Shown here: piece by piece, positions 8,420 to 64,000 of the stretch
Position numbering within the stretch: position 1 is the first letter of the stretch
Layout of the letters: the number at the start of each line of letters is the position of its first letter
Assembly (NCBI GenBank): GCA_020425605.1
Contig: JAGQRH010000003.1
Location: 1 to 64,000 of the forward strand
Length of the DNA: 64,000 nucleotides
Reading direction: 5' to 3'
DNA from: Planctomycetota bacterium
GTDB taxonomy: Bacteria; Planctomycetota; UBA8742; UBA2392
The notes under the pieces: model-generated
The model's input: the letters and a program-made list of their open reading frames with translations, nothing else
What the model was told of the DNA's origin: nothing
Databases searched by the model: none
Made by a program: the position numbers and the translations under genes

Positions 8420-9955
8420 CTATTTGAATTTGATGTCCCAGTCATCAAGTTCGTAGACGACCATCGTGCCGCCGAATTTCACGTACACGGCTACCAGCCA
8501 CTTGTACTTGGTCGTGCTGCTGGCCTTGTCCCACCACTCGGTGAGGCTCGGCACGTAGCTGGGCACCTTGAGTTTGCTGAGGTCCTGCTTGCCGAGTTTC
8601 GGCGCATCCTTCTTGCCGCTGTCGTCGTCGCCGCCGTCCCTGCCCAGGGCACGCTCAATGGCCTTCTTGATGTCGTCAGGGCTGATCCCGTCCGGAATGG
8701 GAATCCCATCCGGCTTTTCCTGAAACCCGTCGGCCGGGTCGTTGACGCCGTCGCCATCGCGCCCACCGCCGCGGCGCCCGTTGTCGCGCGGATTGTTCGG
8801 TGTTGCGTTCGGGTCGTCCGTGGGCTTTTTGCCGGCGATCGGAAGGTGGCCGCCGACGATCTGGTAGAAGCCGTCTTCGCCGAAGGTGGCCTTCTTGGTG
8901 CTCAGGCGGTGGATCTTGGCCTCATCGAGGTCGAAGCGCTGCTGGAACCGGTTCTTGATGTCGTTGGCGTCGCTGCCTCCGACCATGCCGGCGATCTTTT
9001 CGGCAATCGCCACATCCATCTGTCGGCGGGCCCAGTTCAGTGCCTCAGTGACCGAGGCTTCCTTGTTGTCCTTGTCGCGGATGTAGTCGCGTGCGACCGG
9101 CTTCATCTGCTTGTACCACTCGTTGATCACGTACTTCGTGAAGTCCAGGTCGATCTCGGCGTAGGTATCGTCCACCTTGCTGAGCACCGGGCCGGTCGGA
9201 CTGTAGCTGTCCTTTGCCTCGTCCAGGATGTTCAGCGCGCCCTGATACACGTGCTTCTTCGCCTGTTTGCGGGCTTCGACCAGCAGCGTAAGCACGGCCG
9301 CCTGGCGAATCAGCTCATCAAGTTCGGTTTCATACTCGGTGAGGCGCGCCTGCAGCTTGCTGTCCGGCGAACTGGCGAGTGCGAGCGATACGTAGTCCTT
9401 TGCCTCAGGATACAGCCCGAGCTTGTCGGCGATGCGGGCAAGCTCGTAATACTGCTTGGCGGTTTCCAACGGCTCGCGCTGGCTTTCCGCAAGGCGAAGC
9501 ACGTCCGGCTCAGCCATCATCACGGATGCGTCGATCAGGATGTCCTTGACGAAGCCTTCTTCGATGACTTCGTCATCGGGGATCACCTTGCCATTGGTCA
9601 AGTCGAAGTTCTTGACGCGGTAGCCGTTTGCGACCTGGGTGATCTCGCCTTCCATCACGCTGCCGTCGATCAGCTCAAGCCGTGCACCCTCGACCATGAC
9701 TTCAAGATTCAGGCCCTCATCCGGGTCCTGGGCGTTGGTGAGGCGCTTTTTGAGGCCTTCATCGACCTGGTTCCAGCGCAGGAAGACCTGCCCGCCGGAC
9801 TCCGTCAGCTTGAACGTGAAGCCGTCTTCTTTCACTTCGACAACATCGCCCTGCAGGAAACGCCCGTCAGCAAGACGAATCTGTTCGGCACTCACAAAAT
9901 TTACGCTGAGCAACAGGCCAAGAACCAAGGCCGGCAGCCACTTGAGCATGCGCAT
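8420..9955 (-). CDS. Secreted protein with an N-terminal beta domain and acidic linker, function unknown
   Basis: A 511-residue exported protein. The start at 9953-9955 follows GGGAG and gives a clear signal peptide (MRMLKWLPALVLGLLLSVNF, cleavage probably after VSA). Next comes a small beta domain (IRLADGRFLQGDVVEVKEDG) that occurs again in looser form near residue 85 (LELIDGSVMEGEITQVANG), as in secreted PVC proteins with Sm- or SH3-like barrels. The middle (about 140-330) is helical and TPR-like. A Gly/Asp/Asn-rich linker of about 100 residues follows, then a C-terminal block with WWDKASSTTKYKWLVAVYVKF. The Asp-rich linker contains DGDGVND, which resembles a calcium-binding loop. Nothing shows an enzymatic active site. 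Confidence 0.8.
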   Translation of the reverse strand: MRMLKWLPALVLGLLLSVNFVSAEQIRLADGRFLQGDVVEVKEDGFTFKLTESGGQVFLRWNQVDEGLKKRLTNAQDPDEGLNLEVMVEGARLELIDGSVMEGEITQVANGYRVKNFDLTNGKVIPDDEVIEEGFVKDILIDASVMMAEPDVLRLAESQREPLETAKQYYELARIADKLGLYPEAKDYVSLALASSPDSKLQARLTEYETELDELIRQAAVLTLLVEARKQAKKHVYQGALNILDEAKDSYSPTGPVLSKVDDTYAEIDLDFTKYVINEWYKQMKPVARDYIRDKDNKEASVTEALNWARRQMDVAIAEKIAGMVGGSDANDIKNRFQQRFDLDEAKIHRLSTKKATFGEDGFYQIVGGHLPIAGKKPTDDPNATPNNPRDNGRRGGGRDGDGVNDPADGFQEKPDGIPIPDGISPDDIKKAIERALGRDGGDDDSGKKDAPKLGKQDLSKLKVPSYVPSLTEWWDKASSTTKYKWLVAVYVKFGGTMVVYELDDWDIKFK

Positions 9956-11304: not shown

Positions 11305-14268
11305 ATGGTGTCCCGCATGGGTGACCAGAACACAGTCGACCGCGCGGCATCCGGGCTCGGCAGCACCATGGTGCGCGCCGGCGAGTTGCTCAAACGCGTA
11401 CGCAAGGACTTTGGCCATGCCCATGAGCCGAAGCGGCGACTGCTCACAGCAGTGGTAGCTATGTTCGCGGCCGCGATGGCGACCGGGCTGCTGGTCTTCC
11501 GTTGGGGCGAGGCGGGCGCGCTCGATTACGCTGAGTTGCCGACACGCGACCTGCGCGTGAACCTGCTGGAGACCAACGAAGCCCGCGACCCCGACATCAT
11601 GATCATCAACATCGACGAAGGTGCGCTGGCCTACGGCGACTCCTGGAGCGACACCGGCAATGAGACGGCCGCGACCGAGCGTTTCGCCTGGCCGTGGCCC
11701 CGGCACGTCCACAACAAGATCATCCGCTACTGCCGCGAAGGCGGCGCGCGCGCAATCGTGTTCGACTTGACGTTCAAGGAAACCGGGCCGAACACGAATC
11801 AGGTCCTGCTCGATCGCGAGGTCGGCGGAAAGCTGACGCGTGTCTGGACGTTTGACAAGGCGGGCGACGACCTGTTCGCACTTGAGGCCACGGCTCGCGA
11901 CGATGTCGCGCTGGCGCTGGTGCTCGGCGGCACGGACCGGGGCCGCGAAGTCCGCGACAACCTGCTGCCGAAGTATGCCCGCCCGGTCGAAGGACCCGGC
12001 GCGGAGCAATTGTTGCTCGAGGAAGGCGCCCGCTACGCGCCCTACCGCAGCGCCGAGGTGCCATTCGCCGCGCTGATGGATGGCTGGCCGAGCATCGTCG
12101 AGGAGGGTCGACGCGGCGACGAAAAAGCAGAACGCAAACTTGCCGGTCTGCGCAAGAAAGTGAACAACGACGAGTTCATGCTGTCGTCCACCCGCTACCG
12201 CTCGATTCTTCCGCTGACGGAGCCGACCGAACGCCACGGGGTCGCGGCACTCGGTGTAGTAACCGGATTCAACGATGTGGACAGCGTCCAACGTCGCTTT
12301 GACGTAGTTGCCACTTATGACGGCAATACTTACCTGTGCCTGCCGCTCGAAGTCTGGCGCATCTACGTACTCTCATTTGCGCGCGAGGCGCTCGCAGATC
12401 CTGCCAGACGGGCCCGATTTGCGGAGCGTTTTGAGGGCCTGGCCGTGACGGACAAGGGCCTCGAATACGACGGCGCCGTATACGACCTCGCCAACAAGTT
12501 GCAGGACGTGCCCCTGAAAGTAGACGGCCGCACGGCGCACTACCTCGGGCGCAGCATGCCGCTGGACGAAACCGGCCGTGTTGAGTTGCGCTATCGCAAC
12601 TTCCTGCCGATCGACGACAACCTGGATTGGGCCTACATGACCGAGGCCCAGCGCGAGGCCGTTCGCGGCCACAACCCGGACGGTGAGCTATTCGCGATCT
12701 ACCCACAGGTTTCGGCCGCCGACATCCTGCGCGACTGGGACATGATCAACGAGAATCGCTACAAGGCAAATGAGACCGCACGTCTCAATATCCGCCGCGA
12801 TGAGTTGAATGACGAGCTGAAGAACGCCGGCGAAGACGAACGAGAGGCACTCGAGACCGAGTTGGCCGACGTGCGCATGCGACTCAGCGCCGTCGAGGCG
12901 CAGCCCGTGCGCGAGCTCGCACTGGGCAAACCCGGTGAGATGGTAAAGGACAAGGTCGTGCTGATCTCAAGCACCGCGTCCGTGCTGATTGACCGGCACC
13001 GCACACCGCTGGCCCCTAACACTCCCGGCACCTGGGTACTCGCAACTTACTTCGACAACCTGAAGAGCAACGACTTCATGCACTCGCTGCCACGCTGGTT
13101 TGACTGGCTGCTGGCAATCGGCCTGGCCGTCCTCACTGTCGCCGCCGTGCTGTACTCGGGCCGCTTGCGCAATGGTCTCGTGCTGACGCTGCTGCTCGGT
13201 GTGCTGGTGATAGTCGCGTGCTGGGCGGCATTCAGTCAGCAGCTGTGGTTCCCGCTGATGGCGCCGCTGGTGGGGCTGGTTGCGGGCTTCTCGAACGGCG
13301 CACTCGCCAAGGCTTTGACTGAGGGCCACCAGCGCCGACAGCGCGAACACTTCGCCCGCCAGTACATGGGCAAAGAGCTGGTCGACCACGTCATCAATAA
13401 CCCGGCCAGCCTGAAGTTGGGCGGCGAAAACCGCCCGATGACCATGTACTTCAGCGATGTCGCGGGCTTCACAACCGTGACTGAGACTCTGGGTCCCAAC
13501 AACCCCGAGCGACTTGTCGAGCTGCTGAACATCTACCTCGAGCGCATGACCGACCTGATGCTCGGCACCGGCGGCGTAATCGACAAGTACATCGGCGACG
13601 CGATCATGTGCTTCTGGGGCGCGCCGATGGCGCAGGAAGACCACGCAATCCGCGCCTGCCGCGGTGCGCTGGACTGCCGCGCCGAATTGCAGCGCATGCA
13701 GCCGTTGTTCGCAGACGCCGTGCGCGGTATCGCACCGCAGTTGATCAAACCGGACGGCAGCGTGCTGTACGCGCGCGCAGGCATCAACAGCGGCATTGTG
13801 ACGGTCGGCAACATGGGCAGCAGCAAGCGCTTCGCCTACACGGTGATGGGCGATGCAGTGAACCTGGCCGCGCGTCTTGAGCCCCAGTGCAAGAGTTACG
13901 GAACGGACATCCTGATCGGCGAAAAGACCGAAGAGCTGGTTCGGAGTGAGTTCACCCTGCGTCGCATCGACCTGATGGTGGTGAAGGGCAAAACGCAGCC
14001 GGTGCAGGTGTTTGAGCTGATGGGCGACAAGAACGTCCCGCAGTTCGTGAAGGACCTGCTGGAGCATTTTGAGATGGGCATCGACCTGTTCCGCGACAGG
14101 CAGTTCCAAGCCGCGCTGGAGGCTTTCAAGAACGCCGAGCACCACGAGGCCGTGACCGACGAAGACGCCCTCAACCCCAGCCGCCTCTACATTGAGCGCT
14201 GCGAGGCGTACCTGAAAGAGCCGCCGCCGCCGGAGTGGAACGGCGTCGTGGTCAAGACCAGCAAGTAA
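11305..14268 (+). CDS. CHASE2-domain adenylate/guanylate cyclase
   Basis: A 987-residue membrane receptor cyclase. One transmembrane helix (about 45-65) precedes a large extracytoplasmic CHASE2 sensor (about 75-590, beginning DLRVNLLETNEARDPDIMI). Three further helices (about 598-662) lead to a class III cyclase domain (about 705-890). Catalytic features are visible: metal aspartates in YFSDVAGFT and KYIGDAIMCFWG, the base-selecting lysine in the latter, and TVMGDAVNLAAR with the transition-state Asn and Arg. Residue choice fits ATP as substrate. The C-terminal 90 residues are helical and TPR-like. The ATG at 11305 follows AGGA; the frame is open to 11146 but the extra N-terminus overlaps the divergent gene and is low complexity. 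Confidence 0.92.
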   Translation: MVSRMGDQNTVDRAASGLGSTMVRAGELLKRVRKDFGHAHEPKRRLLTAVVAMFAAAMATGLLVFRWGEAGALDYAELPTRDLRVNLLETNEARDPDIMIINIDEGALAYGDSWSDTGNETAATERFAWPWPRHVHNKIIRYCREGGARAIVFDLTFKETGPNTNQVLLDREVGGKLTRVWTFDKAGDDLFALEATARDDVALALVLGGTDRGREVRDNLLPKYARPVEGPGAEQLLLEEGARYAPYRSAEVPFAALMDGWPSIVEEGRRGDEKAERKLAGLRKKVNNDEFMLSSTRYRSILPLTEPTERHGVAALGVVTGFNDVDSVQRRFDVVATYDGNTYLCLPLEVWRIYVLSFAREALADPARRARFAERFEGLAVTDKGLEYDGAVYDLANKLQDVPLKVDGRTAHYLGRSMPLDETGRVELRYRNFLPIDDNLDWAYMTEAQREAVRGHNPDGELFAIYPQVSAADILRDWDMINENRYKANETARLNIRRDELNDELKNAGEDEREALETELADVRMRLSAVEAQPVRELALGKPGEMVKDKVVLISSTASVLIDRHRTPLAPNTPGTWVLATYFDNLKSNDFMHSLPRWFDWLLAIGLAVLTVAAVLYSGRLRNGLVLTLLLGVLVIVACWAAFSQQLWFPLMAPLVGLVAGFSNGALAKALTEGHQRRQREHFARQYMGKELVDHVINNPASLKLGGENRPMTMYFSDVAGFTTVTETLGPNNPERLVELLNIYLERMTDLMLGTGGVIDKYIGDAIMCFWGAPMAQEDHAIRACRGALDCRAELQRMQPLFADAVRGIAPQLIKPDGSVLYARAGINSGIVTVGNMGSSKRFAYTVMGDAVNLAARLEPQCKSYGTDILIGEKTEELVRSEFTLRRIDLMVVKGKTQPVQVFELMGDKNVPQFVKDLLEHFEMGIDLFRDRQFQAALEAFKNAEHHEAVTDEDALNPSRLYIERCEAYLKEPPPPEWNGVVVKTSK

Positions 14269-22222: not shown

Positions 22223-22675
22223 TCAGTCCCAGAGATAGCGTTCATCGTAGTCCGTTCCATGACGCTTCAGGAAGTCGATCAGTTCTTCCTTGAAACCTAC
22301 GTTGCGGTGGTGTTCCTCTTGTTCGGCAATGTAGCGCCCCACATTCGGCGTCTTCGACTGACTTACGCTGAAGGCCGCATACCCTGTCTGCCACGCGAAC
22401 TTGTTGCCGGGCTTCAACTCTTCATTCGCCCACTTGGATGAGCTTCCCTTGATCTGCCTCAACGCATCGGCCAGGGAGACAGCCGTGCCCAGGCGGCAAA
22501 GGATGTGTACATGGTCGTCGACACCGCCGATTGCGAGCATCTCGCCTTTCACTTCCCGGATGATCCCGCCGACATAGGCATACAGGCGCGGTCTCAAGGA
22601 CGACGTAATCAGAGGTGCGCGGTCCTTGGTACTGAACACGAGGTGGTAATTGAGATTCGTGTACGTGTGTCCCAT
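22223..22675 (-). CDS. REP-associated tyrosine transposase (IS200/Y1 family)
   Basis: A 150-residue single-strand DNA transposase. The metal-binding HUH motif is HVHIL (near 54-58), and the nucleophilic tyrosine is probably in GRYIAEQEEHH. The opening TYTNLNYHLVFSTKDRAP is typical of Y1 transposases, and the length fits. It appears intact. The ATG at 22673-22675 lies just inside the right hairpin. The protein would nick and rejoin the flanking palindromes; whether the element still moves cannot be judged from one copy. Confidence 0.93.
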   Translation of the reverse strand: MGHTYTNLNYHLVFSTKDRAPLITSSLRPRLYAYVGGIIREVKGEMLAIGGVDDHVHILCRLGTAVSLADALRQIKGSSSKWANEELKPGNKFAWQTGYAAFSVSQSKTPNVGRYIAEQEEHHRNVGFKEELIDFLKRHGTDYDERYLWD

Positions 22676-51063: not shown

Positions 51064-54000
51064 ATGCCCCGAATTGTCTTCAAGAAGAATGAACACGGCC
51101 CCGTCGACCTCACTGAGGCCGTCACGCTGGGTCGTTCGGCGCAGCACTCCAACGTAGTCGTCCAGGACAACCGCCTGTCTCGCGCCCATTGCCGCTTTGA
51201 GCAGCGCGAAGACGGCTGGGCCATCGTCGATCTGCAGAGCCAGAACGGGACATTCCTCAACGGCCGCCGCATCCGCGAGGCAACCGTCAAGCCCGGCGAC
51301 GTTGTCACCATCGGCACCTGCGACATGCTGTTCGAGGAAACCGGCGGACCGGGCGGCAAGACTGTCATGGCGGGCGTGCAAAGCTCGCGCGGCACGGCGA
51401 GCCTGAATCTCGCTGACGAAAGCAACATCAGCCCCACCCGCGAGAACGTTGAGAGCACGCGCACCGTAGTAGCACCGGCGGCGCTGGTGATGGTCAAGGG
51501 CACGCTGATGGACAAGATCCATCCCATCACGGTCGACCCGTTCATCATCGGGCGCAAAACCGACTGCCAGCTGAACCTGACCAATGACGGCAAGGCCAGC
51601 GGCCACCACGCGCAGATCCGCCGCGACGGCCTGAACTACGTAATCGAAGACCTCAAGAGCACCAACGGCGTTGTCATCAACGGGCAGAAAATCGAAGGCC
51701 CGGTGGTGCTGAAGACCGGCATGAAGGTGCTGCTGGGCCAGCAACTGTTCAAGTTCGAGATGCAGGGCCGCGAGGCCCAGAGTACCGGCGTGACCGCGCC
51801 CAACATCGCGGCGGCCGAAATCCAGGCGCGCCTCAAGCCGCCCGGACAGGCAGGCGACGTCTCGGACCTTGATGAGCCTGAAGATGAAGACAACCCGGCC
51901 ACGATCGCGGCCACACCCGCTGAGCAAGCGGCCCTTAACGTAGAAGAAGACGACAAGGCGGCCCTCAGCCAGGAAATCAAGTTCAAGGGCGGCAGCGGTG
52001 GCCTGTTTGCGATCATCGAGATCGTAGTGGTGATCGCCATTGCGGGCGCGATCCTGTTCGCGGCCTGGACGATGATCAAGGACAACGGCCCCGGTACCGG
52101 CGGCGGCGAAGGCAACTACCCGCCATCGCGCGAAGGCGGCCTGCTTGCGACCAACCCCAGCTTTGACGACGTCGATGAAGGCGGCTACGCCCGCGACTGG
52201 AATTACATCGTCAGCGGCACCGACAGCTTCAACCTCGTGGAGGGCGCACACGGCGGCCAGTACGCGATGCAGATCTCACGCTTCGGGGCCGCCAATGAGG
52301 CAAGCTGGCTGATCAGCAAACGCGCCGACGCGCCGCCCGGCGGCATCAAGGTCAGCGCCTACGCCCTGAACACCGAGGCGTCAGCTGACAGGCTGGGCTC
52401 GGCTGTGATCAGCGTCTTCTGGTACGCCAACAAGCGCGACACGGAGCCGCTGCTGGTCACAACCGTCAACGCCCGCACCAACCTGCGCGAGTGGACCGAG
52501 CTGTCAGGCAGTGCGGCAACACCCCGCGGTGCCAAGCAGTATGCGGTTGCGCTCGGCATGTGCGGCACCCAGGGAAGCGTGGCCTTTGACGACGTGAACG
52601 TCAGCGCCGACGCCGCCGCACTCAGCTGGTTTGAGCCCAAAACTATCAGCACGGCCGAGGGCATGAGTTGGGATATCTCCGAGCAGGGCGACATTTCGCT
52701 GGTCGGCCCCGGCGGCATCTACCTGCGCGGCGGGCGCGTTCAGCTGTACCAGTCCGCGCAACGTCGCGACCCGCTGGAACTGCTCAACATGCTGGTCGAG
52801 AAGCCGAGCTTTGAGGCTTCCGACAACATGCTCTATGCCAAGTACAAGTACTTCGACCCGATGGCCGGCCATGCCGTGCAGCTGGCACTTGAACTGGGTA
52901 CCCGCGACCGGCAGACGGTTTTCACGGCTTCGGTCCAGCCGGCGGGCGACGGCACACTAGACAAGGCCGCACGCACGGTTGCGCTGCACGCGCTTGCAAC
53001 GCCGCTGTGGGTTCCATCTGAGCTGGTTCGGTTCGAGGAAGCTGGCGGCAAGGCCAGGGCCTACGCTTCCGAAATCGGCCTCGGGCGCGATGCGCGAAGC
53101 GAATTCGCCGTGCTGATGTCTGCGGATACGGCGGGTGGCAACAAGATCGTCGCCGGCAAGGGCAGCTCACCCAGTGTCACCGCCATGCGCCAGGCCAGCG
53201 GGCGCGAGTTAATGTTGCAGGACGAAGGCACACTGAGCCTCGCGTTCCTGCGCGGCCAGGGCGACGACGAGCTCTCCGAGCGCGTCTCGCAGATCGCCAC
53301 CGTGCAGCCTGGCGAAGACCAGCTTGACCGGGTGGAACGCGCGCTCAGCATCTTCAGCGATTACCTATATAACCAGGCGGAGGTCGCCTCGGCCGCCGCC
53401 GCCATCGACGCTGCCAGCCAGCACTACAGCCTGCGCCTGTTTGAGCTGCGCGACGGCATCAATGTCCCGCAGCTGACCCGAAACGAGAACCTTTACCGCG
53501 CGGCCATGGAAGAGGCCATCACCTCGGCCGACAAGCTTCGCGACGCGAGCGCCCACTGGAAGAGTGACTCACAGGCCATACTGCTGGCCGCCGACTCCGA
53601 CGAAATGCTTCCCCGTACGCGTGACTCGATTCGTACGGCCCGCAATGCGCTCGATGAGCTGATTGCTTCGGCCGAGGCATTTGAAGAACTCGCCAAGGGC
53701 GCGCGGCGTGCGTTGTTTACGCTTGAGATTGAAATCGAACAACGCGAGTCCGAGCCGTTCATGGTCAGCGCCCGCGACTTCCTCGACAGCGGCCAGTACG
53801 TGCAGGGCATGGTCAAGCTGCGCGCCGTTGTGATCAATTACCCGCGCTGCCTGCGCGGCATCGAGGCCAAGGAGCGCATGGTAGATGTCGCTGCCATCCT
53901 GCTCGATGAAATGGACGACTACGCCAACAAGCGCCTGCGCAACATCTCGCGCGACCGCGCGCTGCAGGCACGCGGGCTGCTCAGCCTGGTGCAAAGCAAG

Positions 54001-54174
54001 CTGCTGGTGACAATCCTGAGCGACATCGAAAAACAATGGCTCCGCGACCCGGGCCTCCCGCCCGAGCTGAAGACAAACGAATGGATTTCGCGCGAAGGCG
54101 CGCTGCTTACCCGCATCAACAAGCTGCGCCTGCGCCTGCCGAGTGATCTGCCGCCCGAAACCGAGGGAGACTAA
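51064..54174 (+). CDS. Two-FHA transmembrane protein heading the pilus-like cluster
   Basis: A 1036-residue protein. Two cytoplasmic FHA domains lie at about 5-95 (GRSAQHSN, LSRAHCRFE, NGTFLNGRR) and 140-235 (GRKTDCQL, SGHHAQIRR, TNGVVINGQ), then an acidic linker, one helix (about 314-338, IEIVVVIAIAGAILFAAW) and a long extracytoplasmic part. That part starts with a jelly-roll-like domain (about 357-520, NPSFDDVDEGGYARDW) and ends in helical segments. FHA domains read phosphothreonine, so kinase signals could be linked to the outside. The first FHA keeps the key R, S and N residues. It is the first gene of the run, and the next start directly abuts its stop. Confidence 0.87.
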   Translation: MPRIVFKKNEHGPVDLTEAVTLGRSAQHSNVVVQDNRLSRAHCRFEQREDGWAIVDLQSQNGTFLNGRRIREATVKPGDVVTIGTCDMLFEETGGPGGKTVMAGVQSSRGTASLNLADESNISPTRENVESTRTVVAPAALVMVKGTLMDKIHPITVDPFIIGRKTDCQLNLTNDGKASGHHAQIRRDGLNYVIEDLKSTNGVVINGQKIEGPVVLKTGMKVLLGQQLFKFEMQGREAQSTGVTAPNIAAAEIQARLKPPGQAGDVSDLDEPEDEDNPATIAATPAEQAALNVEEDDKAALSQEIKFKGGSGGLFAIIEIVVVIAIAGAILFAAWTMIKDNGPGTGGGEGNYPPSREGGLLATNPSFDDVDEGGYARDWNYIVSGTDSFNLVEGAHGGQYAMQISRFGAANEASWLISKRADAPPGGIKVSAYALNTEASADRLGSAVISVFWYANKRDTEPLLVTTVNARTNLREWTELSGSAATPRGAKQYAVALGMCGTQGSVAFDDVNVSADAAALSWFEPKTISTAEGMSWDISEQGDISLVGPGGIYLRGGRVQLYQSAQRRDPLELLNMLVEKPSFEASDNMLYAKYKYFDPMAGHAVQLALELGTRDRQTVFTASVQPAGDGTLDKAARTVALHALATPLWVPSELVRFEEAGGKARAYASEIGLGRDARSEFAVLMSADTAGGNKIVAGKGSSPSVTAMRQASGRELMLQDEGTLSLAFLRGQGDDELSERVSQIATVQPGEDQLDRVERALSIFSDYLYNQAEVASAAAAIDAASQHYSLRLFELRDGINVPQLTRNENLYRAAMEEAITSADKLRDASAHWKSDSQAILLAADSDEMLPRTRDSIRTARNALDELIASAEAFEELAKGARRALFTLEIEIEQRESEPFMVSARDFLDSGQYVQGMVKLRAVVINYPRCLRGIEAKERMVDVAAILLDEMDDYANKRLRNISRDRALQARGLLSLVQSKLLVTILSDIEKQWLRDPGLPPELKTNEWISREGALLTRINKLRLRLPSDLPPETEGD

Positions 54175-55848
54175 GTGGCCTACGGCTTCGACATTGAGAG
54201 CAACCTGAGCATCCTTGTGGGCTTGTCCCGCAAAGGTAGCCAGTACAGGCTGAAGAAAGCGCTGATCCTGCCCGGCTTCAAGGCCGACCCGGACCAGAAG
54301 CCCGAGATCTATGCCGGCGCGCCGCTCGGCAGCACGTACCGCGCGCTCAAGAACATGGGCGTCAAGGCCGGCAACCCGCACACGCTGGTGCCCGGGCGCG
54401 ACGTGTACTACCGCTTTGTCGTGGTCGCCAGCAACAACCCCAAGATGATCGAGCAGCAGGTTCGCATGGAAGCCGACGAGATCGGCGGCGAAGACGCGAA
54501 CATCCTGGCGGACTACATCAGTGGGTCCGACTTCGACTATGCGCCTGCCATCCACGTGGCGCTGGCGCGAGAAGAAGTGATCGACCACTTCGCCAACAGC
54601 CTCACCAATGCGGGCGTTGAAATCGGCCCGATGATCCCCGGCTGTTCGGCCCTGTACCAGGCCTACCTGATCAGCGGCGATACGGATTCTGAACACGTCC
54701 AGATGCACGCCAACATCGGCGACGACAGCACGGACGTGATCCTGGTGCGCGAAAGCCAGCTGCTGTACGCGCGCAGCATCAGCATCGGCGTCAACGACTT
54801 CATCACCCGCCTGCTGCCGGAATACGGCGGCGACCGTGACGCCATCCGCCAGGTGCTGTTCACGCAGATCGACCTTCGCCCAAGCGTGGCTGCGGACAAC
54901 CTCAGCGGCGACCGCGGTGTCGAGGCCGGCCAGGAAGTCGCCAGCCGCATCTTCCAGCAGATCACCAGCACGATCATGCTCGCCAAGGGCGCCATGAAAG
55001 CGCCGAAGCTGGATGCTCGAAAGATCATCCTGTCCGGCGCGGGCGCAGCCATACCCGGGCTGCGCGAGCTGATGATGAACCGCGTGCGCAAGACGGTCGA
55101 GGTGTTCGACCCGCTGCGCAACATCGACATCGAGGGCGTCGACGACCAGACGCAGGAGACCTGCCAGAGCTACCGCCCGGCGCTGGCGCTGGCAATCGGC
55201 CTTGCAGCCCAGGCCGGAGACCCGAAGTCTCAGACCAAGGCGGTCTTCGAGCCCGCAAGCGTTCGCCGCCGCCGCGAGTTCCTGCACAAGAGCCTGTTCC
55301 TGTACATGGCAGCCGCGCTGCTGATCGCGATTGTCCTGCCGCTGTATGTGCTGAGCCGCAACTCGCTCGCCGAGGCCGATGAGACGCTCAATGACCGGCT
55401 GCACGGCCCGATCGGCCGCTACCAGAACGCCAGCAGCGAAATCCCCACGCGCGAGGCCGCACAGGTGCGCGCCGAAAAGCGTTTCGAGGCGGGAGCGATT
55501 GCCTTGATGCCGGGGCGCGCGTCCACGGACGTGTTGACACAGTTCGCCGCCAAACGCCCGGACACGGTGCGCATCCGCTCTGTGGAGCTGCTGACCGACA
55601 CGACCAACCCGAGTAATGACAAGAATTTCAAGCCGCGCACGCTGTTGAAGATGAGCTTCTTCATCGAGAAGAAGCCGGGCGCGGACCCGCTGCAGGTTAA
55701 CGCCGAGCTGCGCAAGATCCTGCTCGGGCTCAAGGGCGTAAAGGCGGTAGTGCCGGGCGAGACCGTCAGCCACGAGACGCCTCCGGGCAACGACGTGACA
55801 CACACGGTCGAGCTTGACCTGTCACTGGAAGGAGCCCCCGCGAAATGA
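54175..55848 (+). CDS. PilM-PilN fusion protein
   Basis: A 557-residue protein. Residues 1-365 form an actin-like PilM domain: MHANIGDDSTDVILVRES, YARSISIGVNDF and the C-terminal ILSGAGAAIPGLRELM correspond to PilM motifs. After a basic linker and one helix (about 373-393) residues 395-557 match the PilN pattern, a coiled coil and small beta-alpha domain (LKMSFFIEKKPGA). PilM and PilN are normally separate, and the order resembles GspL. It starts at GTG directly after the previous stop with GAGGGAG upstream, and overlaps the next gene. Confidence 0.82.
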   Translation: MAYGFDIESNLSILVGLSRKGSQYRLKKALILPGFKADPDQKPEIYAGAPLGSTYRALKNMGVKAGNPHTLVPGRDVYYRFVVVASNNPKMIEQQVRMEADEIGGEDANILADYISGSDFDYAPAIHVALAREEVIDHFANSLTNAGVEIGPMIPGCSALYQAYLISGDTDSEHVQMHANIGDDSTDVILVRESQLLYARSISIGVNDFITRLLPEYGGDRDAIRQVLFTQIDLRPSVAADNLSGDRGVEAGQEVASRIFQQITSTIMLAKGAMKAPKLDARKIILSGAGAAIPGLRELMMNRVRKTVEVFDPLRNIDIEGVDDQTQETCQSYRPALALAIGLAAQAGDPKSQTKAVFEPASVRRRREFLHKSLFLYMAAALLIAIVLPLYVLSRNSLAEADETLNDRLHGPIGRYQNASSEIPTREAAQVRAEKRFEAGAIALMPGRASTDVLTQFAAKRPDTVRIRSVELLTDTTNPSNDKNFKPRTLLKMSFFIEKKPGADPLQVNAELRKILLGLKGVKAVVPGETVSHETPPGNDVTHTVELDLSLEGAPAK

Positions 55849-56771
55849 AATGGCTCAAGGCAAACATCAGGTTCCTCGTCGTCGCGGTGGTGCTGATCGC
55901 GCTTCTGGTACTCGCAAACGGTGAGTTTGGCGACATCGCGAAGTCACTGGACGCCAAGCAAAACCAGGCCAAGACCATGCTGACCGCCAACTACCGTGCG
56001 CTCTTCACCGACGCCGCCAAATTCAACGGCGACCCGGCCACAGTCGAAGGTCGCAAGATGCAGGACAGGACGCAGGTCACCAACGCGCTGACCACGCTGG
56101 TCAATGAGCGCATGACCTTCGAGACCGACCCGGCCTACACGCTGGATTCACTGCCGCAGGGCACATCGGTCGATGAGATGATCAACTTCCTGCGCAACGA
56201 AAAGAAGCCCGAGCTGCAGCGCGAGCTTGGCTTCCAGCGATACTTCGGCCCGGACGTTCGAGACGACAGCGCGTTCGGCTTCAAACTGCCGGCACAGGCG
56301 ACGCTGACCGAAGACCAGGTGCGCGACTATCTCCGCAAGCTCGACATGGTGCGCTGCGTGGCCCATTGCGTGGAACGCACGGGCGTACAGCGCCTCGACA
56401 AGCTCGACTTCAAGGCCATCAACGAAGACCTCAACACCCGCGGCGTCCCGACCCACGCCAGCGCCACCGGCGAACAGCCTTACTTCTCAGGCGAGGGCCT
56501 CGAGATCCGGGTCAGCGCCACGGAAGAGGCGCTCTACGACCTGCTGATTGAGCTGCAGAACCCCGACAAGGAAGGCCTGCACAACCGCTACCTCAGCGTG
56601 GAAACATTCAAGTTCGAGAAGCCCGACCTGCTGGACCCGCAGGACGCGCTGATCACCGCGAAGATCACACTGGTGGCCTACCGGGTGAACCCGGAATCAA
56701 GCTACCCGCCGGACGAGTCGCAGAAAGCCGTGCAGCAATCGAACGCCCGCGCACCGAGGCCGTTCCGCTAG
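55845..56771 (+). CDS. PilO/GspM-like bitopic membrane protein
   Basis: A 308-residue protein with one N-terminal helix (about 9-27, IRFLVVAVVLIALLVLANG) and a periplasmic domain with a leading coiled coil and a ferredoxin-like alternating pattern, as in PilO. Identity is based on position after PilM-PilN, topology and size; PilO sequences are hard to recognise. The ATG overlaps the previous stop (ATGA). Confidence 0.62.
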   Translation: MKWLKANIRFLVVAVVLIALLVLANGEFGDIAKSLDAKQNQAKTMLTANYRALFTDAAKFNGDPATVEGRKMQDRTQVTNALTTLVNERMTFETDPAYTLDSLPQGTSVDEMINFLRNEKKPELQRELGFQRYFGPDVRDDSAFGFKLPAQATLTEDQVRDYLRKLDMVRCVAHCVERTGVQRLDKLDFKAINEDLNTRGVPTHASATGEQPYFSGEGLEIRVSATEEALYDLLIELQNPDKEGLHNRYLSVETFKFEKPDLLDPQDALITAKITLVAYRVNPESSYPPDESQKAVQQSNARAPRPFR

Positions 56772-56779
56772 GAGAGAAC

Positions 56780-57277
56780 ATGGACCAGCTACTGCATCGC
56801 CTCAACGAGTGGAAAGAGAAAATTCTCTTCGTGCTCGCATTGCTGGTGACGCTGGCCATCGTGATGAAGGCCCGCCCGCTCGGCGGCGGCATCGTCGACA
56901 TCGACTCAGATCAGCGCCAGGCGCAGATCCAGGCGGCCGGTATCGACCAGGCCCAGGCCGAGAAAGTACTCACCAAGCTTGAGAAGCCGCCCACATGGGA
57001 CCCGGTTCAGCTCGACAGCCTTCGCATCGAGCGCCCGTTCTATGACGAGGGCGACGACTTCACTTCGCCACCCAACAAGGGCTCAAGCTGGAGCCTGTCG
57101 CAGGCGACCTACGAAAACCTGCCGCCGCTCCAGCTCAGCGTGCCGGGCTACGGCGCGTTGCCGGACTATGACATGCCCGCCGGGCCGCACCCGTCACTGA
57201 CCAAGGCGAACGGAAGCGTGCCCCGGGACGACCGCCCGGTGGGCCTCACCGAGCCTGAGACGGGAGAGTTCGACTAA
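56780..57277 (+). CDS. PilP/GspC-like small bitopic protein
   Basis: A 165-residue protein with one helix (about 15-31, ILFVLALLVTLAIVM) and a Pro-rich periplasmic tail (PPLQLSVPGYGALPDYDMP). Its position matches PilP, but the globular HR domain of PilP/GspC is not clear. Its stop shares a base with the next ATG (TAATG). Confidence 0.5.
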   Translation: MDQLLHRLNEWKEKILFVLALLVTLAIVMKARPLGGGIVDIDSDQRQAQIQAAGIDQAQAEKVLTKLEKPPTWDPVQLDSLRIERPFYDEGDDFTSPPNKGSSWSLSQATYENLPPLQLSVPGYGALPDYDMPAGPHPSLTKANGSVPRDDRPVGLTEPETGEFD

Positions 57278-60213
57278 TGCGCATACTCCCGGCCATGCTC
57301 GCGTTGCTTCTGCTTGCGCCTGCCCTGTGCGCGCAGGTTTCGATCGATGAAAAGCCGCGCCGCTACATGATCATCAAGGTCGACGGCGCAGCCAAGGAAT
57401 GGGAAATCCGCCCCTGGAAGGTCACCGACAAGGGCGGCCGCACCATGCAGGGTGCCAGCGAGGGCGACTTCAAGCTCGATGTCGAGCGCTGGGAACGCAC
57501 CGGCCTCTACAAGCGCTACAACACGAAGCTCTGGAAGCAGGCCGTCGCCGACTACCTGCGCGGCGGGCCGAAGGCGACCGACGGCAGCCGCTTCTACTTC
57601 TATGCAATCAACCCGCGCCAACCGCGTGCGGAGGGCGTCGTCAACCTGTTCGACGAGCGCAAGCACATCTACTGGGTGCCCGCCAACACCGTCGAGGTAA
57701 AGGGCTACCCGCAGACCTGGGTCGATGTGTACGAATCCTTCGTGACGCGCCAGGAAGGCGACGCGCGGCGCCAGGCGGTCAAGGACTGGGAAGCCGCTCA
57801 CCGTGACATCATCAAGAACCTCGAGGACTCTGAAGACGGCTTCTCGCCCGAAGAGCGCAACGAGTTTGCCCGCTTCTACCAGGCGCAGTTCGTCTACGTA
57901 CGCGACCAGAACCCGACACTGGCGGCCATCTACGACGAGCTCGCGGCCTTCCATCGCGAGCGCAATAACCTCGACGCCGAGCTGAGCACATATCTCGACG
58001 CGCTGCGCGCCGGCGTTGCAGGCGATGACCGGGAACGCTTCGCGCTGGCCGTCGGCCGCATCTTTGTGAACCGCCTGAACCTGCCTGGCGAGGCCATCCC
58101 CTACCTCACGCAGGCGCCGCACTACACCGAGGCGCTGTACCTGCTCTCGCATTGCTACATCGAAACCGAGCAATACGACCTCGCCCGTACGCAACTGAAC
58201 AATCTGACCGCAACTCTCACCGCGATGCCCGAGGGAACTGTGCTGGAGACCACGGCCGAAGAAGAACTGGGCCGCGCGTATCTGACCCTCGGCGAGCTTG
58301 AGTTCAAGCTGCTGAATCTCGTCGCGGCCAATGACGCCGTGGGCAAGATCGCCAAGGAGAACGCAAGCTGGGACGCCGGCCAGGTGCTGTTCTGCGCAAT
58401 GCTGCTGCAACGTAATGAGCCAAAGCGCGACGCCGACAAGAGCGATGCACAGAAGATTCGCGAAACACTCAAGACGCTCAGCTTCTGGCAGACAGCACAG
58501 GGCTACACCAACCCGCAGCCCGCCACGGACTTCCCGCTGGACCCGCTGATGGCCCAGGCGCTGGTGATCTATGCGCAGACGGACAGCCAGTACACGGCCG
58601 CCCGCCCGGACAAGACCGACCGCAAGCCGAGCGCCGAAGTCATCCGTTTCCTCACCGCCGCAAAGGCGCTAGATCCGCTATCCGCCGAGCCCTATCTGGC
58701 GGAGGGTCGCCTGTACCAGCGACTCGGGCAGTTCACCGAGGCACTGGCCGTTTATCGCGAAGGCCTCGATGTCGATCCGCGTCACGTGCTGCTGAATTTC
58801 GCGGTCGCCGACCTGAACCTGAAGGGCGGCGTGGTCAGCGTTGCCAAGGATCATCTGAGCCGCTGCCTGAAGTACTCGCCAAGCTTCTACCCCGCGCACA
58901 CGCTGCTGGGTGAAATGGCGCTGGACGAAGTCGAGCGCGTGCGCGCTTCCCTTATCCTGCGCATGAATGCAGGTGAAATGGTCGACTACGCCGGCGAGTT
59001 GGTACCGCCGATGAAAGAAGCCGCCGCGTTCTTCACCTCCTCGCTGTCGATCAATGGCGATCAACCGGCAACCAAGCTGGCACTGGCGACGCTCGACCTG
59101 CGACTGGCTGAAGTCGCGCCACTGGGAATCGCGGACCGCGACGACGCGGAATCCGTACGCAAGGCCTATATCGGCAAGGCTCGCGACCTTTCCAAGGAGT
59201 TGATCGACAAACTTGAGAAGTTCGCAGAGTCCGAGCAGCCCAAGAACATGAACGAGCGTGAGCTCGCACAGGTTCCGTCACTCGGCTGCTACAACATCTA
59301 TGCCTTCGCGCTGTATACGCTCGGCGACCATGACCGCTCGCTGGAAGCATTCCAGAAGCACATCGAAAACGCGCGCAAGAAAGAGTTCATCCCCGACAAC
59401 AAGGTCCGCAAGGAATACGAGATGTCGGCCTCGCTCGCGTACGCCCAGAACTGGGTGCAACGCATCGAGCAAAACCAGCGCCAATACTTCGAGACCGACG
59501 AATTCGACCACGACAGCACAAAGCCGTCCGGTGCGACCATCTGGTACAACGGCAACTGGACGATTCCCACCAAGCTCAAGCCGGACCTTGGCTTCACCAG
59601 TGACACCCGGATCGCCGGCGGCCGACTTAAGCTTGTGGTCGACCAGAAGGAATCGGGAGTAATGAGCCGCATCGAAGTCGAGAAGCCGCACGGCACGCTC
59701 TCGACGTTCGAGGCCGAGTTCACGCAGGTCAGCGACGTCGCCTTCGACCGCGGTGTGTTCATCACGAAAGTGGTAAAGGGCTCAGGCAGCGTCGATAGCG
59801 AAGCCGAGCCGAAGTGCAGCATCTTCCTCGGCATCGACTCGCAGGGCCGGGTATTCTGGGAAAGCCGCAAGTACGACATGGACGACAAAAACCAGGTTGA
59901 AAAGCGCGTCGGATACGGGCTTGTGGACATCAGCCTCTACGGCGGCGTCCCCCTAAACCCGGAAGACCGCCTCACGCTCAGCATCCGCCGCCAGCTCAGC
60001 AACGACCACAGTGACATCGAGTACATCGCCATCATCAACGGTTGGGAAACGAAGCTGCCGGTCGAGCTCGATGAGCTGACCCGCGTCGACTTCAACCAGA
60101 GCCGCTACGCCGTGCATTGCGGTTTCTTCACGCGTGCACTGACCGGCGTGAAGGGCACGGTCGAAGTTGACCGTGCGAAGTTCATCTACGACAGCGGGCA
60201 GACGAAGAAATAG
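57277..60213 (+). CDS. Large secreted TPR protein of the pilus-like cluster
   Basis: A 978-residue exported protein with a signal peptide (ILPAMLALLLLAPALCAQ). The region from about 180 to 700 is a TPR-type helical solenoid (for example EALAVYREGLDVDPRHVLLNFA), and the C-terminal 230 residues form a beta-rich domain (IWYNGNWTIPTKLKP onward) like a lectin-type jelly roll. In a type IV pilus context, secreted TPR proteins pilot or stabilise the secretin (PilF/Tgl-like), but this one is far larger and not obviously a lipoprotein. It starts on the previous stop and ends two bases before the pseudopilin gene. Confidence 0.8.
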   Translation: MRILPAMLALLLLAPALCAQVSIDEKPRRYMIIKVDGAAKEWEIRPWKVTDKGGRTMQGASEGDFKLDVERWERTGLYKRYNTKLWKQAVADYLRGGPKATDGSRFYFYAINPRQPRAEGVVNLFDERKHIYWVPANTVEVKGYPQTWVDVYESFVTRQEGDARRQAVKDWEAAHRDIIKNLEDSEDGFSPEERNEFARFYQAQFVYVRDQNPTLAAIYDELAAFHRERNNLDAELSTYLDALRAGVAGDDRERFALAVGRIFVNRLNLPGEAIPYLTQAPHYTEALYLLSHCYIETEQYDLARTQLNNLTATLTAMPEGTVLETTAEEELGRAYLTLGELEFKLLNLVAANDAVGKIAKENASWDAGQVLFCAMLLQRNEPKRDADKSDAQKIRETLKTLSFWQTAQGYTNPQPATDFPLDPLMAQALVIYAQTDSQYTAARPDKTDRKPSAEVIRFLTAAKALDPLSAEPYLAEGRLYQRLGQFTEALAVYREGLDVDPRHVLLNFAVADLNLKGGVVSVAKDHLSRCLKYSPSFYPAHTLLGEMALDEVERVRASLILRMNAGEMVDYAGELVPPMKEAAAFFTSSLSINGDQPATKLALATLDLRLAEVAPLGIADRDDAESVRKAYIGKARDLSKELIDKLEKFAESEQPKNMNERELAQVPSLGCYNIYAFALYTLGDHDRSLEAFQKHIENARKKEFIPDNKVRKEYEMSASLAYAQNWVQRIEQNQRQYFETDEFDHDSTKPSGATIWYNGNWTIPTKLKPDLGFTSDTRIAGGRLKLVVDQKESGVMSRIEVEKPHGTLSTFEAEFTQVSDVAFDRGVFITKVVKGSGSVDSEAEPKCSIFLGIDSQGRVFWESRKYDMDDKNQVEKRVGYGLVDISLYGGVPLNPEDRLTLSIRRQLSNDHSDIEYIAIINGWETKLPVELDELTRVDFNQSRYAVHCGFFTRALTGVKGTVEVDRAKFIYDSGQTKK

Positions 60214-60215
60214 CC

Positions 60216-60923
60216 ATGCGCCACTCAAGACACGGCTTCACACTGATCGAGATCATGATCGTCGTCGGGATCATCATCCTGCTGGCGGCTGTGCTGCTGG
60301 TCAGCTTCAGCGGCGTGTTCAGCAAGAGCAAGCAGGCCCAGACCAAGACCACCATCGAGACGCTCAAGGCCAACGTCGAGAGCTACCAGGCGAAGTGGGG
60401 TGTGCCCCCGCCAAGCAACCTGGCTGAATTGGGGATCCTCGCGGGCTATCCTGCGCTGGCTGACCCGAACAAGGAAAACATCGGCATCGAGGCCCTCGTG
60501 CTGGCACTGCGCAGCAAGCGCGAGCAGGGCCCATACCTTGATCCTGGCCTGCTTCAGGACGAGAAACGCCGCACGAACCTCGACATCGACACAGTACTGG
60601 AAGAGGCCGTCGCGCCCGAGAACCTGGATCTGGAAGAAGGCAGCGCGCGCGACCTGTTTGAGATCGCCGACGCCTGGGGCAATCCGCTGGTCTATGTCGA
60701 CATGAAGACCGTACGCGCGGGCAACTTCGCCTACGACATCACCATGGCCGACGGCAGCCGTACACGCATCGATGCGACCGCCTGTCAGGACGCCCTGCGC
60801 CACCCGGTCACCGGCCAGTACCCCACCGGCTACGTGATCTGGAGCTTCGGCGAAGACGGTATCAACGACTATGGCCGCGGCGACGACATCACCAGCTGGC
60901 CGAAGTACGAGGTCGAAGAGTAG
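60216..60923 (+). CDS. gspG: GspG-type major pseudopilin
   Basis: A 235-residue pseudopilin. A short basic leader with the prepilin-peptidase site HG-FTLIEIMIVVGII (cleavage after G7, Glu at +5) precedes the helix. The GspG signature AWGNPLVY appears at about 150, then the C-terminal end FGEDGINDYGRGDDITSW has the calcium-site-like Asp cluster found in GspG. The protein is longer than usual (about 140): roughly 90 extra residues sit between the helix and the WGNP motif, with many Leu/Glu/Asp. No prepilin peptidase is in the window. Confidence 0.9.
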   Translation: MRHSRHGFTLIEIMIVVGIIILLAAVLLVSFSGVFSKSKQAQTKTTIETLKANVESYQAKWGVPPPSNLAELGILAGYPALADPNKENIGIEALVLALRSKREQGPYLDPGLLQDEKRRTNLDIDTVLEEAVAPENLDLEEGSARDLFEIADAWGNPLVYVDMKTVRAGNFAYDITMADGSRTRIDATACQDALRHPVTGQYPTGYVIWSFGEDGINDYGRGDDITSWPKYEVEE

Positions 60924-60998: not shown

Positions 60999-61985
60999 GT
61001 GGCGCACTACCGCACAATTCTGGGCATCGATGAAGCCGGGCTGGGGCCGATCCTTGGCCCGCTGACGCTGGGCTATGCCGCGTTCGGGCTGAGTCAGCCG
61101 CTGACCCCGGCGGGTGTGCTGGGCCTCGACATGTGGGACGCACTCGAGCTTGGCCGCGATGCCATCGAGCGCAAGAAACGCCCCGTGGTCTGCGACAGCA
61201 AGAAGCTGTATTCGCCCGCCAAGGGCGTACGCGCGCTGGAAGAAGAAGTGCTGGCCTGGGCTGCGCTGGCGGGCCACAACCCCGGCGATTTTGCCGCCTT
61301 TCGCGACGGCCTGTGCCCGCTCGCGCGCGAGAAGCCTGAGAACTACGACTGGTACGCCGCCCCGCCACAGCCGTTCCCGCTTGAAGCGAGCGCCGATCGC
61401 GCGGCGTTGCGGGGGCAGGCGCTCGGCCGTTCGCTGACGGCTGCAGGCTTTAGGCTGCAGGCCTTCGGCGTGAACCCAATTCTGGAAGGCGAACTGAACC
61501 AGCTGATCAATCGCACCGGCAACAAAGCCCGCGCCGAGTTCGACGCTATCGCCCGCATCATCGGCCCGATCTGGCAACAGCATCGCGAGTTGGCCGTCGT
61601 CTGCGACCGGCAGGGCGGCCGAACACGCTACGGCCGGTCGCTGGCCTCAGAATTCCCGGAAGCGCACATCGAGACGCTGCACGAGGCAAAAGAGATCAGC
61701 ACCTACGAGCTGACCATCCCCGAGGTCGAGGGCTGCCCGCGCATGTTCATAGCGTTCATGGAAAAGGGCGAGGGCCACCACCTGCCCATCGCGCTGGCCA
61801 GCATGGCCGCCAAATACATGCGCGAGTTGATGATGCACCAGTTCAACGCCTGGTTTCACAACTACGACGCCGACATCAAGCCCACCGCCGGCTACTACCA
61901 GGACGGCAAACGCTGGCTGGCCGACACCAACGAGATGCGCCGCAAAATCGGCGTCCCCGATGAGCGGCTGATCCGCAAGCGCTGA
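60999..61985 (+). CDS. Divergent RNase HII-like protein
   Basis: A 328-residue protein with the RNase HII order: GIDEAGLGPILGPL (D11, E12), CDSKKLYSPA (66-75), a third acid in VVCDRQGG (D203), and ASMAAKYMRELMM (E276 at the place of the last Asp). The usual arginine of DEAGRGP is leucine, and the last acid is Glu rather than Asp. It is also about 100 residues longer than RNase HII between the SKKL and VVCD blocks. RNA-DNA hybrid cleavage is therefore possible but not assured. The start is a GTG with no ribosome site. Not in an operon with neighbours. Confidence 0.72.
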   Translation: MAHYRTILGIDEAGLGPILGPLTLGYAAFGLSQPLTPAGVLGLDMWDALELGRDAIERKKRPVVCDSKKLYSPAKGVRALEEEVLAWAALAGHNPGDFAAFRDGLCPLAREKPENYDWYAAPPQPFPLEASADRAALRGQALGRSLTAAGFRLQAFGVNPILEGELNQLINRTGNKARAEFDAIARIIGPIWQQHRELAVVCDRQGGRTRYGRSLASEFPEAHIETLHEAKEISTYELTIPEVEGCPRMFIAFMEKGEGHHLPIALASMAAKYMRELMMHQFNAWFHNYDADIKPTAGYYQDGKRWLADTNEMRRKIGVPDERLIRKR

Positions 61986-63639: not shown

Positions 63640-64000
63640 ATGGGCGGCGAAATCCTCACGATCAAGCTGACCGGCATTGCCGGGTTCTCTAAGGGCAAGG
63701 AATTCACGATCGAGGAAGGCGGCGAGGCGGTGATCGGCCGCTCACGCGACTGCAGCTTCCGCATTGGTGAGCTCGATGAACCGGAGCCCGACCCGAACAA
63801 GCCCTTCAAAGGTACCGGCGGCAAGGACGATCATCTGCACACCGTCAGCCGGCACCACGTGAAACTCACGTTCCAGAACGCCAAGTCAATCTTCATCCAG
63901 GACCAGTCCAAGCACGGCACGTTCCTGAACGGCAACAGGATCGAGGGGCGCGACCAGATCATCGGCCTGCGCAAGGGCCCGATGGAGCTGCGGCTGGGCA
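63640..64000 (+). CDS. FHA-domain protein (partial, cut by window end)
   Basis: At least 120 residues are present. They form one FHA domain with AVIGRSRDCSFRI (the key Arg), TVSRHHVKL (the Ser-Arg-His-His contact) and KHGTFLNGNRI. An insertion rich in Pro, Asp and Lys (DEPEPDPNKPFKGTGGKDD) sits between the first two motifs, where other FHA domains have a short loop. What follows is outside the window. It is the second FHA gene here. Confidence 0.88.
   Translation, partial: MGGEILTIKLTGIAGFSKGKEFTIEEGGEAVIGRSRDCSFRIGELDEPEPDPNKPFKGTGGKDDHLHTVSRHHVKLTFQNAKSIFIQDQSKHGTFLNGNRIEGRDQIIGLRKGPMELRLG

Follow-up and report, generated by a model that had tools for sequence, protein, structure and literature searches.

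In the type II secretion system (T2SS), GspL carries PilM and PilN in one chain (PMC4471445), whereas in type IVa pilus (T4aP) machines the two are separate proteins. The T2SS genes lie in one locus in 96.5% of cases (PMC4793230). We analysed the first 64,000 nucleotides (hereafter the window) of the forward strand of contig JAGQRH010000003.1 from a Planctomycetota bacterium (assembly GCA_020425605.1), and in it a six-gene cluster that begins with a forkhead-associated (FHA) domain protein and includes a fused PilM-PilN protein. A preliminary description had taken this cluster for a pilus or secretion platform, possibly of a distinct subtype. The distinct subtype was upheld, and the generic pilus gave way to a T2SS-like machine in view of a GspG calcium loop and a GspL-like fusion. 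The operon probably encodes the inner-membrane platform, together with the major pseudopilin, of a type IV filament machine resembling the T2SS, one with a wide distribution among Planctomycetota. The system is a phylum-wide variant of the T2SS in which a transmembrane FHA protein (FHA-TM protein) is the first gene and the components are split over several loci.

A six-gene cluster with a GspL-like fusion

The cluster occupies positions 51064-60923 on the forward strand, and the successive spacings of its genes (0, −4, +8, −1 and +2 bases) agree with the dense packing described earlier, in which no gap or overlap exceeds eight bases. The FHA-TM protein (51064-54174; two Pfam FHA domains, E 5.2e-35) has 1036 amino acids (aa). 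It is followed by a GspL-like PilM::PilN fusion (54175-55848, 557 aa, GTG start), a GspM/PilO-like protein (55845-56771, 308 aa), a small proline-rich protein (56780-57277, 165 aa) anchored in the membrane according to hydropathy, an exported tetratricopeptide repeat (TPR) protein recognised by its TPR matches (57277-60213, 978 aa) and a GspG-type major pseudopilin (60216-60923, 235 aa; N_methyl 2.8e-6). Hydropathy placed one membrane segment in each of the first four proteins, at residues 314, 374, 6 and 15. All six genes recur in the same order, with 57-80% identity, in four other Planctomycetota assemblies (L021-L024). All four have an isocitrate dehydrogenase-like gene upstream, and three retain the RNase HII-like gene that comes next downstream of the window cluster, at 60999. 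Because of this synteny in independent assemblies, an assembly error as the source of the fusion was ruled out. In L022, the operon includes a short gene (L022:13302-13766) that separates the TPR gene from the small membrane gene; the start of the short gene resembles window gene 22223-22675, and by eye both look like REP-type transposases.

The fusion consists of an actin-like PilM domain (residues 1-349), a PilN motif at the joint (about 358-370), a membrane segment (374-392) and a coiled coil leading to a ferredoxin-like PilN domain (465-547). Pfam PilM_2 covered residues 4-345 (5.5e-11), and Pfam and NCBIfam delimited the PilM region as 3-345. When a profile of 30 sequences from the phylum was compared with structures in the PDB, positions 1-349 matched Myxococcus PilM (3jc8; E 6.7e-43), and positions 357-473 matched PilN of the same structure from PilN residue 3 onward (E 2.5e-6). 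The joint retains FEPASVRRRREFL (phylum consensus FLPxSVRKRREFL), which we read as the putative N-terminal PilM-binding motif of PilN; a second fused PilM protein of the same genome, at locus L036, has INLIPPE at the same position. An AlphaFold2 model (pLDDT 87.5) comprised an actin-like domain, a long transmembrane helix and a beta-beta-alpha-beta-beta C-terminal domain, and its best fold matches were all PilM, followed by FtsA and other actin-like proteins. Both profile and model display the GspL architecture of a cytoplasmic actin-like and a periplasmic ferredoxin-like domain in one protein. The profile matches to both partners, the joint motif and the synteny establish that the fusion is real. 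The accompanying statement that PilM and PilN are normally separate is valid for T4aP only, since GspL of the T2SS is PilM plus PilN in one chain, as is the Amuc_1101-like PilM at L036.

The third protein was modelled by AlphaFold2 with a pLDDT of 86.5, and Foldseek matched it to Amuc_1100 (1.7e-7), to PilO in 3jc8 (2.0e-5) and to PilO 2rjz (1.5e-3). Its assignment to GspM is by fold alone (PilO/Amuc_1100 type), with no GspM match in sequence. The fourth gene had been called PilP-like. This identity was rejected because the profile libraries gave no support: the 165-aa protein had no Pfam or NCBIfam match and none of PilP type, and it is instead a membrane-anchored proline-rich protein. Its proline-rich part weakly matched, by profile (probability 75%), the N-terminal region of membrane-TPR proteins. 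The equivalent operon position elsewhere in the phylum is taken by such a membrane-TPR protein, and hhalign aligned its TPR part with the 978-aa TPR protein (99.9%). It is likely, judging from these alignments, that the small anchor and the exported TPR protein are the two pieces of a membrane-TPR protein that was split in the window's family.

Distant pseudopilin genes, proposed motor and pore

The window pseudopilin ends in a loop, WSFGEDG...GDDITSW, that corresponds to the C-terminus of its family (SxGxDGxxGTxDDITxW). The family profile matched the calcium loop of solved GspG structures (3g20, 3.1e-6; 29jd, 2.6e-4; 1t92, 1.6e-3; also 5wda), and together with the N_methyl match this substantiates the GspG type proposed earlier. 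In distant families the order is uninterrupted: FHA, fusion, PilO-like, membrane-TPR, GspG, GspH-like, giant GspK-like, GspJ, GspI and a protein of about 500 aa. Other members of the phylum thus keep intact a longer operon, of which the six window genes make up only half. In the window genome the H-K-J-I block lies on the same contig (C98:174787-183027), about 114 kb from the cluster, and its genes matched those of the uninterrupted operon of relatives (K, 2.8e-15; J, 1e-22; I, 2.8e-11; H, 1.5e-6). The GspK-like protein has 1831 aa. A gene of 511 aa on the reverse strand of the window (8420-9955) is likely, from its phmmer matches to the gene that follows gspI in relatives (L116, 1.1e-14; L121, 1.9e-12; L117, 8.6e-11), a further displaced member. 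Among the family-f1 genomes searched, all 16 retained a GspJ gene, generally on a different contig from the fusion. In the stretch L112:5272-11867 (equal to C98:175272-181867) and its homologues in L116-L125, the GspJ-like proteins have a short module in common, IGxEW...RGxRGTxPxxHxAGAxV. Phage tail-tip proteins match this module too (8vjh, 7.2e-6; 8rk3, 0.0055), and the giant GspK-like protein is similar to a family known from gene transfer agents, Rcc01698_C (6.1e-5).

As the preliminary description had noted, genes for an ATPase, GspF and a secretin are absent from the cluster itself, and the neighbourhoods sampled from its relatives did not show any either. Its suggestion of a motor encoded elsewhere proved right, and the absence of a motor through gene loss was rejected: the genome has several PilB/GspE proteins, several T2SSF proteins and one prepilin peptidase match. 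A lone GspD gene, unlinked to the cluster (L035:8840-10960), scored 359 bits against TIGR02517 (cut-off 351.35) and has three Secretin_N domains plus Secretin. The ATPase on contig C78 had TIGR02533 as its best NCBIfam match (615.6, under the cut-off of 630.25), and a GspF-like protein on C85 (L033:9121-10407) has a single T2SSF domain. The T2SS-type components are spread over C66, C78, C81, C85 and C98.

Relatives have a gspD-E-F operon, mostly with its own G, H, I and J next and with no K, L or M. Its E is closest to, and an orthologue of, the C78 ATPase of the window genome (46-55%, versus at most 42% for the other ATPases), its F resembles the C85 protein in the C-terminal domain of the latter (46-59%), and its pilins match a second G-H-I-J set on C81. 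The first half of the C85 protein is a different, coiled-coil-like sequence, and the GspF of the relatives' operon matches over a greater length. The PilB-PilT-PilC genes on C142 are a less likely motor, since the ATPase of that operon is closest to the C78 gene. An idea that D-E-F is simply the missing part of the window operon was revised, since D-E-F has its own G-H-I-J. The main argument for pairing the two is complementary contents: the FHA operon would supply L, M and K and the other operon D, E and F, which is suggestive of one machine. We infer that the window system secretes. By analogy with GspE on GspL, a cytosolic GspE hexamer would dock on the PilM-like domain; ATP hydrolysis, acting via GspF and the GspL/M pair, would add GspG subunits beneath a K-J-I(-H) tip; and the growing pseudopilus would drive periplasmic cargo out through the GspD secretin. 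The TPR protein may take the role of GspC and link platform, cargo or pore, and the FHA-TM protein could switch or anchor the platform by binding GspE, the PilM domain or a Ser/Thr kinase when this partner is phosphorylated on threonine.

Distribution, the FHA protein and rival explanations

Orthologous clusters had been suggested as a check, and beyond the four syntenic assemblies a profile search (match at 1e-10) found fusion homologues in 169 of 392 Planctomycetota genomes. In 20 loci sampled outside the genus of the window genome, PilM and PilN were fused without exception, a membrane segment was predicted near residue 352-383 in 18, and an FHA open reading frame stood immediately upstream in 19. 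Several of the genomes sampled that lack the FHA cluster (most clearly G127, G185, G341, G220 and G310) carry one-locus T2SS operons. Next to D, these have a short M-like gene and an L-like gene whose product spans the membrane and in some cases is weakly similar to PilM. These ordinary operons do not explain the window cluster. A literature search on Planctomycetes with PilM/PilN, FHA and T2SS, or on the Verru_Chthon cassette, returned no description of such a system.

The FHA-TM protein has two N-terminal cytoplasmic FHA domains, a membrane segment near residue 314 and about 700 aa beyond the membrane. In line with the earlier claim that a phosphothreonine-binding protein heads the operon, the GR/S..H/NG residues are intact in both domains. 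Residue alignment of 19 homologues (14-44% identity) showed G-R, S..H and N-G conserved in all 19 in the membrane-proximal domain; the first domain was missing in 8 and retained, with small changes in some, in 11. The platform may be under phosphothreonine control. Alternatively, the FHA domains could be structural, as in the SctD/YscD ring protein, and read no phosphothreonine. The layout of cytoplasmic FHA, membrane segment and periplasmic part is identical to that of SctD/YscD, and Pfam Yop-YscD_cpl (PF16697) also matches. Given that PF00498 scores better and that the binding residues persist at such low identity, we regard this as a possible but less probable explanation. Other proteins with FHA domains were also observed. 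An FHA-GAF-sigma54 activator immediately precedes the FHA operon in L076, and one of the same type lies a few genes away from a GspF-like gene (L032:6891-14863, C120). Close to a PilT-PilB gene pair, an FHA domain is combined with a trypsin-like domain in one protein (L026:12676-14559, C76). A small protein with a single FHA domain (window 63640-63999, extending to 147 aa in L039) is encoded after a YebC-like gene, the pair being conserved in L022 as well.

As a rival to a secretion pseudopilus, the product of the cluster could be a type IV pilus that extends from the surface and serves adhesion or motility. The PilM half is closest to T4aP PilM, the GspI-like protein also resembles PilV (5.4e-9), PilT-like ATPases occur in the genome, and one relative has a LamG-bearing modular pilin, a design linked to adhesion (PMC8179133). 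The presence of separate T4aP-type and Amuc-like sets argues against the window cluster as the genome's ordinary pilus. The former comprises separate PilM, PilN, PilO, PilP and PilQ on C73 (L034; PilM and PilQ assigned by profile, the others by position and length) and PilB-PilT-PilC on C142 (L025), and the PilT-like genes (C142, C76, the end of C98 and C102) are all away from the window cluster. With a pilin bearing the GspG calcium loop and with GspK-type subunits, a surface pilus appears improbable. Still less credible is the reading of the cluster as the planctomycete counterpart of the Akkermansia Amuc_1098-1102 pilus locus. The PilO-like fold is closest to Amuc_1100 and the fusion matches the Amuc_1101 family (2e-16), but at 59.9 bits against a cut-off of 650 and with no adjacent secretin; a better Amuc_1101-type protein (3.5e-58) lies with its own secretin on C22 (L036:4956-17426, equal to C22:30955-43425), and the window cluster lacks a secretin and has FHA and GspG added. 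The Amuc_1098/1101-like set at L036 encodes a fused PilM of 688 aa, two membrane proteins, a TPR-secretin of 896 aa, a 1367-aa protein and then short proteins that look ExbD-like from their sequence. A lone secretin of 894 aa with N-terminal TPRs (L028:6690-9374, C78) resembles the L036 secretin in layout. Elsewhere in the window, gene 11305-14268 joins a CHASE2 domain to an adenylate/guanylate cyclase domain.

Several observations weigh against a T2SS-like machine run by the unlinked genes. Almost all matches of the pseudopilins fall short of the curated cut-offs (TIGR01710 on the window pseudopilin, 1.6e-9; GspK, 3.6e-6; GspJ, 1.7e-5; GspI, 1.8e-3; GspH, 4.2e-3), and the GspK and GspJ profiles found no GspK or GspJ match in the PDB. 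The PilM half is nearer to T4P PilM than to GspL (4pht, E 0.041), and neither the small membrane protein nor the TPR protein had a sequence match to the GspC/PilP homology-region domain. D, E and F are unlinked, their use by the platform being argued from complementarity and orthology, and G026 and G028 have this D-E-F type without an FHA-linked fusion. In favour of such a machine, a GspD-like secretin occurred in 144 of 169 fusion-positive versus 139 of 223 fusion-negative genomes, a co-occurrence uncorrected for phylogeny. In five loci, from three families, the 20-kb stretch that holds the cluster also has Ser/Thr kinase genes (next to the cluster in L084); as a raw count this is a lead for phosphothreonine control, and such kinases are common in Planctomycetota. 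The second G-H-I-J set could also mean two filaments. In that case the FHA operon would encode a second pseudopilus (G'H'K'J'I') and depend on the D-E-F-G-H-I-J operon for motor and secretin, with two exchangeable filaments and one pore. Two pseudopilin sets stand alongside a single D-E-F identified as T2SS-type, and each operon has what the other lacks; as the second set may equally be extra minor subunits of one pseudopilus, we consider two filaments conceivable though not favoured. We view as doubtful the broader proposal of a Planctomycetota T2SS whose platform is switched by Ser/Thr phosphorylation via an FHA ring protein and in which two pseudopili, G-H-I-J and G'-H'-K'-J'-I' with giant tip subunits, would share one motor and pore.

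Relation to described machines

Surveys of secretion systems depend largely on single-locus models, and with the gene order reported here the T2SS-like system can be looked for throughout the phylum. With a conserved phosphothreonine reader as its first gene, the platform operon offers a testable link between Ser/Thr kinases and protein secretion or pseudopilus assembly in Planctomycetota, a phylum rich in polysaccharide-degrading enzymes.

Compared with the T3SS (type III secretion) protein SctD/YscD, the FHA-TM protein shares a cytoplasmic FHA-type domain, one membrane segment and a large periplasmic part. The machine is unrelated, and the window protein keeps phosphothreonine residues that, to our knowledge, the FHA-type domains of SctD lack. 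The Amuc_1098-1102 locus of Akkermansia muciniphila resembles the cluster in Amuc_1100, the top fold match of the PilO-like protein, and in the PilM-like Amuc_1101 of similar size; it differs in having its own PilQ and in that no FHA, TPR or GspG is described there, and its closer relative in this genome is L036. The T4aP PilMNOP platform (Myxococcus 3jc8, Pseudomonas, Thermus) shares PilM/PilN sequence, the PilO fold and the PilN joint motif, but the window cluster has PilM and PilN fused, has no PilP, PilT or PilQ, and has GspG instead of a PilA-type pilin. From the T2SS the system differs in its distribution over several loci, the added FHA-TM and TPR proteins, a GspK of 1831 aa, the second pseudopilin set and a GspC not found by sequence match, while it has in common the GspL-type PilM-PilN fusion, the GspM fold, the GspG calcium loop, minor pseudopilins probably of K, J, I and H type, and GspD, E and F in the genome.

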